A stretch of 64,000 nucleotides of DNA from contig QCQE01000001.1 of the NCBI GenBank assembly GCA_003212275.1, positions 62,001 to 126,000 on the forward strand, given 5' to 3'. The position numbers and the translations under genes are program-made. Below are positions 8,598 to 14,814 of this stretch, one piece after another. The stretch comes from Pelagibacteraceae bacterium AG-447-N18 (GTDB lineage Bacteria; Pseudomonadota; Alphaproteobacteria; Pelagibacterales; Pelagibacteraceae). Below the pieces are notes generated by a model. That model was given only the letters and a program-made list of their open reading frames with translations, was not told the DNA's origin and did not search any database. The stretch's first letter is position 1, and each line of letters opens with the position of its first letter.

Positions 8598-10088
8598 ATG
8601 AAGTTATTTTTTATACTGGGCAATCAATTATTTCCATTAAAATACCTAGACCGCTTCAAAAAAGACCACCTTTTTTTCATGGCTGAAGATTACGAGCTTT
8701 GTACTTATGAAAAACATCATAAACAAAAAATTCTTCTATTTTTATCATCAATGCGATCTCACGCGGATGTACTTAAAAAAGATAAATTTAAAATAGAATA
8801 CTCAAAAATAGAGGATAAAGAATTTAAGGAAAGTTATTTTAAAAAGCTTAAAAAATTAATTAGCACAAAAAAGATTAAGGAAATATCCAGTTTTGAAGTT
8901 GAGGATAAGTTTTTTGAAAAAAAAATTAATCAATTTGTCAATAAAGAAAAAATACAATGGAATATTATCCAGACGCCAATGTTTTTAAATTCAAGAGAGG
9001 ATTTTAAAAAATATTTATCTAAATCCAAAAAACCATTTATGGCAACTTTCTACAAAGATGTCAGAAAAAAATCTGGAATATTAATGGGTGCTGATGGGAA
9101 TCCTACAGGAGGTAAGTGGAGTTTTGATGAGGATAATAGAAATAAATTACCAAAAAATATTTCAATCCCAAAATTTCCAAAAATAAATGAAACTTCTCAT
9201 ACTAAAAAGCTAAAACCTATTGTTGAAAAGCTATTTAAGGATCATCCTGGCAGTACCAAAAATTTCTGGTTTGCTACAGAACACAATGATGTTTTGAAGC
9301 TTTTAAATTTTTTTATTAAAGAAAAATCAAATTTATTTGGTGATTACGAGGATGCAGTTGATCAAAAAGATAATATTTTGTTTCATAGTGCACTAAGTCC
9401 ATATGTAAATTTAGGTCTTATCACTCCAGAATTTATAATTAAAAAAATTTTAGAATTTCATAAAAGTAAAAAAATAAGACTAAATTCTTTAGAGGGATAC
9501 GTTCGTCAAATAATTGGTTGGAGAGAATTTATGAGAGGAATTTATCAAAGTTATTCTACTGAAATGGAGACAGGAAATTTTTTTAAACAAAATCGTAAGA
9601 TGAAAAAATCCTGGTATGATGGCACCACTGGATTACCACCATTGGATTATGCAATAAAGAACGCATTAAATCATGGATGGTCTCACCATATTGAAAGACT
9701 CATGATTTTATCAAACATAATGAACCTTTGTGAGATCAAACCCACAATTGTTTACAAGTGGTTTATGGAAATGTTTGTAGACTCCTCAGATTGGGTGATG
9801 GTTCCAAATGTTTATGGAATGGGATTGTTTAGTGATGGTGGAATATTTGCAACTAAACCATACATTTGTGGATCAAGTTATTTTATGAAGATGATGGATT
9901 TTAAAAGGGGTGATTGGTGCAATATAATGGATGGTCTTTATTGGAGATTTATAGATCGAAATAGAAAGTTTTTTTTAAAAAATCCAAGGCTATCAATGAT
10001 GGTGAGAATTTTCGATAAGATGAAAACTGATAGAAAAAAATTGATTTTGTCAGCTGCAGATAAATTCATTAAAGCAAATACAATTTAG
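8598..10088 (+). CDS. Cryptochrome/photolyase family protein of the FeS-BCP / (6-4) photolyase (PhrB/CryB) type, with atypical cysteine motif
   Basis: N-terminus ILGNQL...MAEDYELCTYEKHHKQKI, GGKWSFDEDNRNKLP, YVRQIIGWREFMRGIY, NVYGMGLFSDGGIFATKPY. The CxxC normally found after the 'KPY...RMSDY' block is absent. Confidence 0.88.
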   Translation: MKLFFILGNQLFPLKYLDRFKKDHLFFMAEDYELCTYEKHHKQKILLFLSSMRSHADVLKKDKFKIEYSKIEDKEFKESYFKKLKKLISTKKIKEISSFEVEDKFFEKKINQFVNKEKIQWNIIQTPMFLNSREDFKKYLSKSKKPFMATFYKDVRKKSGILMGADGNPTGGKWSFDEDNRNKLPKNISIPKFPKINETSHTKKLKPIVEKLFKDHPGSTKNFWFATEHNDVLKLLNFFIKEKSNLFGDYEDAVDQKDNILFHSALSPYVNLGLITPEFIIKKILEFHKSKKIRLNSLEGYVRQIIGWREFMRGIYQSYSTEMETGNFFKQNRKMKKSWYDGTTGLPPLDYAIKNALNHGWSHHIERLMILSNIMNLCEIKPTIVYKWFMEMFVDSSDWVMVPNVYGMGLFSDGGIFATKPYICGSSYFMKMMDFKRGDWCNIMDGLYWRFIDRNRKFFLKNPRLSMMVRIFDKMKTDRKKLILSAADKFIKANTI

Positions 10089-12353: not shown

Positions 12354-13073
12354 TTGAACATAATTATTTTACAACACATTAAAATTGAAGATCCAGGTTA
12401 TATAAAGGATTTAATGATGGCTGATGGATTCAATCTTACTACAATTGAATTAGATGAGGGTCAAAAAATTCCAACAAATTTGAATGAATTCGATGGAATG
12501 TTTTGTATGGGAGGTCCGATGGATACTTATATGGAAAAAGAATTTCCTTGGTTAGTTGAGGAAAAAAAAAGAATTAAAGAATTTGTTATTGATTTAAAAA
12601 AACCATATTTAGGTTTTTGTTTAGGTTGTCAGTTATTAGGTGAAGTTGTTGGAGGTAAAATTGTTAAATCAAGGCCAGCAGAGATTGGAATGATGGATAT
12701 CAATTTCACCCAAGAAAAAAATAAAGACAATTTATTCTCAAAATTTCCTGACCAAATTAAAAGTTTACAATGGCATTCTTACGAGGTCCAAGAAATAGAA
12801 AATAATAATGATGTCACTTTATTAGCGTCATCTCCAATTACTAAATATCAAATTTTTAAATATCAAGATCATGCTTACGGTATCCAATTCCACATTGAGA
12901 TAAAAGACACAACTGTAAAAGAGTGGGGATGTGTACCAGAATATAAAAAAGCCCTTGAAGATCAGTTAGGAAATGGAGCGTTAGAAAAATTTGATCAATC
13001 TGCTAAAGATAATATGACAGATATGAATAATTATTCTAAGATTCTTTATAATAACTTTAAAAAACTTTTATGA
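12354..13073 (+). CDS. Type 1 glutamine amidotransferase-like protein
   Basis: FCMGGPMDTYMEKEFPWL, PYLGFCLGCQLLGEVVGG, QFHIE triad region; TTG start. Confidence 0.85.
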   Translation: MNIIILQHIKIEDPGYIKDLMMADGFNLTTIELDEGQKIPTNLNEFDGMFCMGGPMDTYMEKEFPWLVEEKKRIKEFVIDLKKPYLGFCLGCQLLGEVVGGKIVKSRPAEIGMMDINFTQEKNKDNLFSKFPDQIKSLQWHSYEVQEIENNNDVTLLASSPITKYQIFKYQDHAYGIQFHIEIKDTTVKEWGCVPEYKKALEDQLGNGALEKFDQSAKDNMTDMNNYSKILYNNFKKLL

Positions 13074-13291
13074 ATAATAAAATTTTTGAGTGGGCAGGTG
13101 TTATCACTGCAATAATGTACTCATTATTTGTGGCTATGAACATTGGTATAGAGTTTTTTGGTTTTTGTTTACTACTTATATCTGCAATTCTAATTGGAAT
13201 TTGGGCTTATCGAGGCGGTCATAGAGGAATATTATTTTTACAATTCTTTTATGCAACAGCCGGGATCATTGGCATGTTTAGATGGTTTTAG
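13070..13291 (+). CDS. Small membrane protein, unknown function
   Basis: 73 aa, two to three TM helices, 4-nt overlap with the upstream gene. Confidence 0.65.
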   Translation: MNNKIFEWAGVITAIMYSLFVAMNIGIEFFGFCLLLISAILIGIWAYRGGHRGILFLQFFYATAGIIGMFRWF

Positions 13292-14427
13292 TTAAGTGTT
13301 GAAATAATTTTTGGAATATAATTTTTAAAGTTAAAGAAACCTTTATTACAATATTGCCAAGAGTTTTGATCAAGTTCTCTATAAAGGAAATTGATTTTAA
13401 AAGTATTTGAATTCAAATAATCTAAATTTTCTCCAACAGTTGGATACAACCCGACTGCTTTTTCTATCTTTTTAATTTCGCTAATATCTATAACTTCACA
13501 ATCAATAGATTGATTTTTAAATCTTTGTTCCTGGTCTTGAATAAGTGAAGATTTAAATTTTAGAACTTTTTCACTAAGTTTGATGCATCTATTTTCATTT
13601 TTATTCGAAATTATATAAAATTTTTTAAATTTATTATTTTGAAAATCACTTGTTTCAAAACAGAGGTTATTCTCGAATATTATCAAATTATTTTGATCAA
13701 TATTTTCAGGATTAGTAAAATCCTGTTTTAAAATTGAGTATTTCTTTTCAGAAATCTTGGGTGGAGCGTTTTCATTTAATTTAATATTACTAAATCTATT
13801 ATTAGTAAATTTTTTGATATTCCACTCACTTGCTAAATAATGTTTTCCCTGTGTTTGAATACCTGCAACCCATCTCCATCCAAGAGTGTTTGATGCAGCG
13901 TCTCCATCATAAAGATGTTGCATAAAAAATTCCGCTCCCAATTGCCATGGCAAATTTAGCGTAAAAATCCAAATACTGGCAAACCACATTCTAGTATGAT
14001 TATGCAAATAATTATTTTCTTTGAGTTCGTTGACCCAATAGTTAAAGCACTCTACGTTTGTTTTTCCCTCAATCGCGTTTTTATAAGTTAGATTATTTTG
14101 AAAATCTTCTTTAATCTTTTTTAGTTCAATTAAAAAATCTGTCCAAACACTGGGTCTTAATTCTAACCAACCTTTCCAATATGTACGCCACAATACTTCT
14201 TGAATAAATTTTTCATTTTTTGTGAATGAAAATTTATTAAGAGATTTTTTGATAACCTCCTTTTCATTAATAATTCCGTGAGTAATATATGGAGATAAAC
14301 AAGAAATATTAGACCTGTTATCAGGTCCGTAATCAAAGTTTCTAAGTTTTGAATACTCTGAGAGATTGTTTTCCACAAAATAATTTAGTTTGTCTAAGGC
14401 CTTAGCCCTTGAAGCTTCAAAATTCAT
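13288..14427 (-). CDS. Photolyase/cryptochrome FAD-binding-domain protein lacking the N-terminal antenna domain, with an extra C-terminal domain
   Basis: SCLSPYITHGIINEKEV, EVLWRTYWKGW, LHNHTRMWFAS, LYDGDAASNTLGWRWVAGIQTQGKHYLASEWNI are FAD-domain motifs near the N-terminus; about 150 aa of unassigned sequence follow. Confidence 0.8.
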   Translation of the reverse strand: MNFEASRAKALDKLNYFVENNLSEYSKLRNFDYGPDNRSNISCLSPYITHGIINEKEVIKKSLNKFSFTKNEKFIQEVLWRTYWKGWLELRPSVWTDFLIELKKIKEDFQNNLTYKNAIEGKTNVECFNYWVNELKENNYLHNHTRMWFASIWIFTLNLPWQLGAEFFMQHLYDGDAASNTLGWRWVAGIQTQGKHYLASEWNIKKFTNNRFSNIKLNENAPPKISEKKYSILKQDFTNPENIDQNNLIIFENNLCFETSDFQNNKFKKFYIISNKNENRCIKLSEKVLKFKSSLIQDQEQRFKNQSIDCEVIDISEIKKIEKAVGLYPTVGENLDYLNSNTFKINFLYRELDQNSWQYCNKGFFNFKNYIPKIISTLN

Positions 14428-14433
14428 TTTTAA

Positions 14434-14814
14434 TTATTTCGATTTTTTTTTCTTTAGACCTAATTTATCGCTATGTCTTAATCTCAAGATTACAATAGCA
14501 CCTGCAATTAAAACTATTGCTACCGCCTCATATACTAACGCACTTGGATCCATTTCTTTTCCTTGTAAAATAATAAATCGTGCTAATGCTGTAATAGCTA
14601 TAAGTAGTGGTAATGTAATACTTATAGATTGCTGATTCCAAAAAACTCTTACCATCGCTAGCACTTCTAAGTAAAGAAACATTAGCAGCAAATCAGCTAA
14701 GGTTACTGATCGATTTTCAAACATTTTATAAATCTCTATTCCAACTGCAATTACAGTGCTTACTAGAATGATGCACATTAAAAGAAGTTGTAGGTTTTTA
14801 GCTATCTTTTCCAT
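14434..14814 (-). CDS. PsiE-family (phosphate-starvation-inducible-like) membrane protein
   Basis: 126 aa, four TM helices, LADLLLMFLYLEVLAMVRVFW and ALARFIILQGKEMDP pattern. Confidence 0.75.
   Translation of the reverse strand: MEKIAKNLQLLLMCIILVSTVIAVGIEIYKMFENRSVTLADLLLMFLYLEVLAMVRVFWNQQSISITLPLLIAITALARFIILQGKEMDPSALVYEAVAIVLIAGAIVILRLRHSDKLGLKKKKSK

Follow-up and report, generated by a model that had tools for sequence, protein, structure and literature searches.

The 64,000-nucleotide stretch of DNA analysed here (the window) comes from an alphaproteobacterium whose small genome (1.12 Mb in 36 contigs) points, by its size and gene content, to SAR11, and encodes what is, with a probability of roughly 0.86, a NewPHL-type photolyase, in which a FAD domain is followed by a domain homologous to the photolyase antenna domain, and which would repair CPDs by means of reduced FAD and owe its domain order to a gene fusion. 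The protein fits the already known NewPHL class, an assignment made by the described features of the class. The features of the gene and of a linked second photolyase are compiled in Table 1.

Table 1. Positions within the window of the inverted photolyase gene, its parts, and the linked photolyase gene.
Feature	Positions	Strand	Basis or size
Inverted-order (NewPHL-type) photolyase gene	13288..14427	(-)	379 aa + stop
FAD/catalytic domain, residues 1-215	13783..14427	(-)	Pfam, profile match, all-helical model
Residues 174-189, DGDAASNTLGWRWVAG	13861..13908	(-)	mapping to E. coli photolyase
Linker, residues 216-245, without regular secondary structure	13693..13782	(-)	AF2
C-terminal alpha/beta domain (Z-domain position), residues 246-379	13291..13692	(-)	AF2, Foldseek, profile-profile
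Linked photolyase of the prokaryotic 6-4 type, with the DPRP N-domain in front	8598..10088	(+)	Pfam, cysteine columns

The reading frame runs uninterrupted through 379 codons from an ATG at 14427, and the stop codon of a PsiE-family gene (14434-14814) lies 6 nt upstream of this start. This narrow spacing and an in-frame stop upstream of the ATG leave no room for an undetected N-terminal antenna domain, and both an overlooked upstream exon and a frameshifted N-domain were ruled out on the same grounds. Furthermore, start and length are the same in 17 full-length relatives. The first-pass annotation, made from the letters alone, had noted that FAD motifs begin near residue 1 and that the N-terminal antenna domain is missing, which is borne out by the spacing, the conserved start, and the Pfam results given below. 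Convergent with the photolyase gene is a small ORF (13071-13289) that encodes a membrane-protein-like product of ~70 aa.

The sole Pfam domain in the protein is FAD_binding_7 (residues 74-197, E 9e-16), and the photolyase FAD domain was also the only NCBIfam hit; neither PF00875 nor the DPRP N-domain was found by Pfam. In a profile-profile comparison, the FAD part matched the class I FAD domain with P 1e-34, and the relatives found by sequence in the PDB are class I/III photolyases, covering residues 4-197. With the class I CPD photolyase of E. coli (PhrB, 1dnp), the protein shares the FAD domain and the catalytic residues: equivalents of E274, W277, R278, N341, R344, M345, D372, D374, N378, W382, and W384 were all found, as was that of W359, and these residues are nearly invariant among 116 relatives, whereas R342 is replaced by His. 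Within DGDAASNTLGWRWVAG, D174, D176, and N180 map to FAD positions, W184 to the proximal Trp, and W186 to the residue stacking on the CPD; the last is kept in 115 of the 116 family members and the other four in every one. W184 and W161 make up a Trp dyad, the distal W306 being represented by D108 and not conserved among the 116 relatives. Taken together, the conserved residues predict that the protein is a CPD photolyase and that its Trp chain is a dyad. PhrB, in contrast, has its antenna domain first, a complete C-terminal helical bundle, and a Trp triad, and the FAD domain of the window protein is shorter at its C-terminal end than those of class I photolyases. The protein thus lacks the N-terminal PF00875 that marks a canonical class I enzyme, and it has neither the DPRP N-domain nor the four Fe-S cysteines of a prokaryotic 6-4 photolyase (FeS-BCP), a CxxC...C tail downstream of the FAD domain being absent from the family alignment.

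The NewPHL class, with its inverted order, was described by Emmerich et al. 2020, according to the papers citing it (PMC9426592, PMC13274461, PMC8948257), and CPD repair in ssDNA is attributed to NewPHLs in two of these (PMC9426592, PMC13274461). Characterised members are those of Dinoroseobacter shibae (A8LJA9), which has a Trp dyad (PMC8948257), and Methylobacterium mesophilicum (M7YZC8). Phr7, described by Haney et al. 2022 (PMC9426592) with reference to Emmerich et al. 2020, likewise has an N-terminal FAD domain and a C-terminal Z-domain. Common to NewPHL/Phr7 and the window protein are the N-terminal FAD domain, the C-terminal Z-domain, the lack of Fe-S cysteines, and the Trp dyad; moreover, NewPHL/Phr7 are common in alphaproteobacteria, the group of the window protein. 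None of the tested features differ, and the difference lies in the source, the characterised members being those of D. shibae and M. mesophilicum and the window protein that of a small SAR11-like genome.

As a NewPHL, the protein would bind fully reduced FAD in its FAD domain. A CPD, probably in single-stranded DNA, would be flipped against W80 and W186 and split by an electron that the flavin donates under light, and photoreduction of FAD would proceed via W184 and W161. The C-terminal domain of NewPHL, in the 2020 work of Emmerich, reportedly seals the flavin pocket. By analogy, the C-domain of the window protein would pack on the FAD domain and close this pocket, not necessarily carrying an antenna dye; both this sealing role and the specificity for ssDNA are carried over from the characterised relatives.

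The AF2 model of the whole protein is of high confidence (pLDDT 95.3, pTM 0.92, no residue below 70). After residue 246, it comprises five strands alternating with helices, and folded alone the C-domain still reached pLDDT 86 and pTM 0.76. A disordered tail or chance extension was ruled out by the pLDDT of 95.3 and by pN/pS, which shows purifying selection on both domains, with values of 0.11-0.14 in the FAD part and 0.03-0.27 in the C-terminal one. In a Foldseek search with the whole model, photolyases were matched via the FAD domain. When only the C-domain was used as query, the top three and most of the other high-probability matches were prokaryotic 6-4 photolyases and CryB (9hnk, 9q8f, 8ijy, 4dja, 3zxs; TMq 0.52-0.56, prob 0.94-1.00), the non-photolyase folds among the matches listed reaching TMq <=0.40. 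The corresponding E-values (0.009-0.12) are not strong taken alone. Since the FAD domains of the matched enzymes are all-helical, the matched part must be their N-terminal antenna domain. A sequence search of the PDB with the C-domain gave nothing useful, and hmmscan against Pfam with 50 members of the family yielded no domain for the window sequence and scattered weak matches for others; of these, BLH_phosphatase (5/50 members, best 9e-5) was taken as generic alpha/beta similarity. The alternating beta-like and helical stretches that had been read from the letters are thus present in the model, and neither of the findings named beforehand as speaking against a moved domain, C-terminal disorder or an unrelated known domain, was seen in the AF2 model or in Pfam on the 50 members.

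That the nearest folds belong to enzymes binding 6,7-dimethyl-8-ribityllumazine or 8-HDF may also suggest a variant of the NewPHL reading, namely a reversed antenna-bearing photolyase in which a chromophore held by the C-domain passes its energy on to FAD, in place of the C-domain only closing the flavin pocket. We consider this variant unlikely, as the most conserved residues of the C-domain are G332, D353, W357, G363, and F365 and as the class has been described with an atypical short domain (PMC9426592).

An antenna-type origin of the C-domain, as preferred here, does not depend on fold likeness alone. In profile-profile tests, whose P-values are those of single comparisons, the window-family profile aligned collinearly with the class I N-domain over 119 columns at a modest P 1.8e-4 (Prob 48), as compared to P 0.02 or worse for reversed and shuffled controls; the accepted equivalents class I N-domain and DPRP N-domain reached only P 0.025 in the same test. 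Stronger links were obtained via a bridging set of standalone alpha/beta proteins encoded beside alphaproteobacterial SPL genes and their Deinococcus relatives, which matched the photolyase N-domain over 135 columns (P 1.2e-10) and the window-family C-domain over 131 columns (P 1e-7), the alphaproteobacterial set giving bridge scores of 46-57 vs <=18 for shuffles. In one Deinococcus protein (L253), PF00875 itself was picked up after the FAD domain, with an E of 7e-4 below the Pfam cut-off. These comparisons of sequences support the C-domain as a true homologue of the photolyase antenna domain. They likewise favour, together with the Foldseek matches to photolyase antenna domains, one of the two readings offered by the first-pass annotation, that is, a permuted architecture with an antenna-type alpha/beta domain moved to the C-terminus, over the other, a novel domain.

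Alternatively, the C-domain could be a Rossmann/HUP-like (e. g., Usp-like) domain that was recruited independently and resembles the antenna domain at the level of fold only. Indeed, a Usp profile matched the window-family C-domain with P 1.3e-4 and a local score similar to that of the photolyase N-domain. The match, however, spans only 68 columns vs 119, the bridging sequences prefer the photolyase N-domain over Usp in both comparisons (P 1e-10 vs 5e-5 and 1e-8 vs 8.5e-4), and no Usp chain appears among the best 50 PDB fold matches, so that independent recruitment is quite improbable. A Usp identity was rejected, being both weaker and shorter than the photolyase N-domain once the bridging sequences enter, and an ETF profile did not match the C-domain.

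The bridging sequences are also informative about SPLs. These FAD-domain-only proteins (Xu et al. 2021) have been regarded (PMC9649867, PMC9178010) as lacking an alpha/beta domain and as possible antenna-less ancestors of photolyases; a 2026 paper (PMC13274461) uses ‘NewPHLs or SPLs’ for proteins of inverted topology. SPLs have a FAD domain related to that of the window protein and, like it, near the N-terminus with no antenna domain before it. The SPL reading frame, however, ends soon after this domain, whereas the window protein continues for ~165 residues that include an alpha/beta domain and is therefore not of the FAD-domain-only type. In a survey covering Alphaproteobacteria (289 genomes) and Deinococcus, all 8 alphaproteobacterial SPL genes (L052-L059) were directly followed by an alpha/beta gene of 131-179 aa homologous to the photolyase antenna domain, and when the profile of the alpha/beta proteins was in turn used as query, it returned exactly those 8 genes plus two canonical photolyase N-domains. 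The same two-gene state is found in Deinococcus QL22 (L257, 1228-2519), where the genes overlap by 4-8 nt as they do in 7/8 of the alphaproteobacterial pairs.

Three further Deinococcus loci (L253:1384-2754, L254:1408-2826, L256:1110-2483) encode a FAD domain with Fe-S-type cysteines and then an alpha/beta domain, apparently an Fe-S-type SPL fused independently, in the same order, to an antenna-type domain. In a tree of FAD domains, the window family forms one clade (100/100) apart from the SPLs, and FeS-BCPs form a separate one (100/100). The Deinococcus fusions are nested within the SPLs, with long branches and an unsure deep order, and therefore the fusion of FAD and alpha/beta domains probably arose at least twice. 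As judged from gene order and sequence likeness, an SPL may represent one half of an enzyme encoded by two genes and not a photolyase without an alpha/beta domain. We lean towards the broader reading that an SPL is the catalytic half of such an enzyme with its antenna-type domain in the next gene, that NewPHLs and, separately, the Deinococcus fusions derive from this pair, and that the Z-domain is a true antenna homologue and not new. Since the two-gene arrangement is still present in relatives, the inverted order of the window protein would probably stem from fusion of two adjacent genes, the FAD gene first and the alpha/beta gene second. The alpha/beta domain in the next gene also bears on the claim that SPLs, for want of it, are ancestral.

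A heterodimeric photolyase in Synechococcus had been considered earlier (PMC3441193), and Haney et al. 2022 (PMC9426592) described reversed-order Phr4/Phr5 (split) and Phr6 (fused) with Fe-S cysteines. These proteins of marine Synechococcus/Cyanobium resemble the window protein in that the FAD domain is followed by a photolyase alpha/beta domain; Phr4/5 is, however, split over two genes and Phr4 and Phr6 carry Fe-S cysteines, whereas in the window protein the domains are joined in one chain and such cysteines are absent. The NewPHL Z-domain, the Phr4/Phr5 pair, and the SPLs can accordingly be viewed as variants built from one pair of modules, the FAD domain preceding the alpha/beta domain, either on one chain or in separate genes.

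The inverted domain order is real and widespread in bacteria. It recurs in many families among the 289 alphaproteobacterial genomes, and a GTDB scan revealed at least 593 relatives, 80 of which were extracted and inspected; in answer to the domain-order survey proposed at the outset, all 80 proved to be full-length (~365-435 aa), with a FAD domain followed by the C-terminal domain. They stem from Alpha- and Gammaproteobacteria and Actinobacteria (Frigoribacterium, Curtobacterium, Cryobacterium), as well as from single MAGs labelled Verrucomicrobia and cyanobacterium, and include Rhodobacterales and Hyphomicrobiales, the orders of the characterised NewPHLs. In RefSeq, such proteins are named ‘FAD-binding domain-containing protein’. 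Viral contigs contained no relatives, phage matches being limited to the FAD domain. A Persicobacter plasmid (Bacteroidota; L255) encodes a FAD domain with a divergent C-terminal extension that resembles the same domain with a weak score. On a Halorubrum plasmid (L143:3290-4888), a photolyase is apparently split in the canonical order, with a short photolyase ORF followed by a FAD-domain ORF.

The second photolyase of the window is a separate enzyme and a conserved neighbour. All four of its Fe-S cysteines are absent, as in the marine PromaPL/Phr2 group (PMC9426592). Inverted photolyases lie within ~6 kb of a DPRP-type photolyase in 8 SAR11-like genomes, and in other species the commonest neighbours are canonical photolyases (9/94 genes, 36 loci). 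A class I-type photolyase is encoded elsewhere in the host genome (contig 14), so that repair by a further enzyme could seem redundant, yet a cryptochrome-like light sensor or non-repair flavoprotein is hardly to be expected given the conservation of the CPD-contacting residues across the 116 relatives, the ssDNA repair ascribed to characterised NewPHLs in the papers cited above, and the frequency of photolyases among adjoining genes. Besides the inverted photolyase, HL Prochlorococcus carries a 6-4-type enzyme without Fe-S cysteines (PMC9426592), and the SAR11-like genomes suggest that one more kind of abundant ocean bacterium carries the two types, here near each other.
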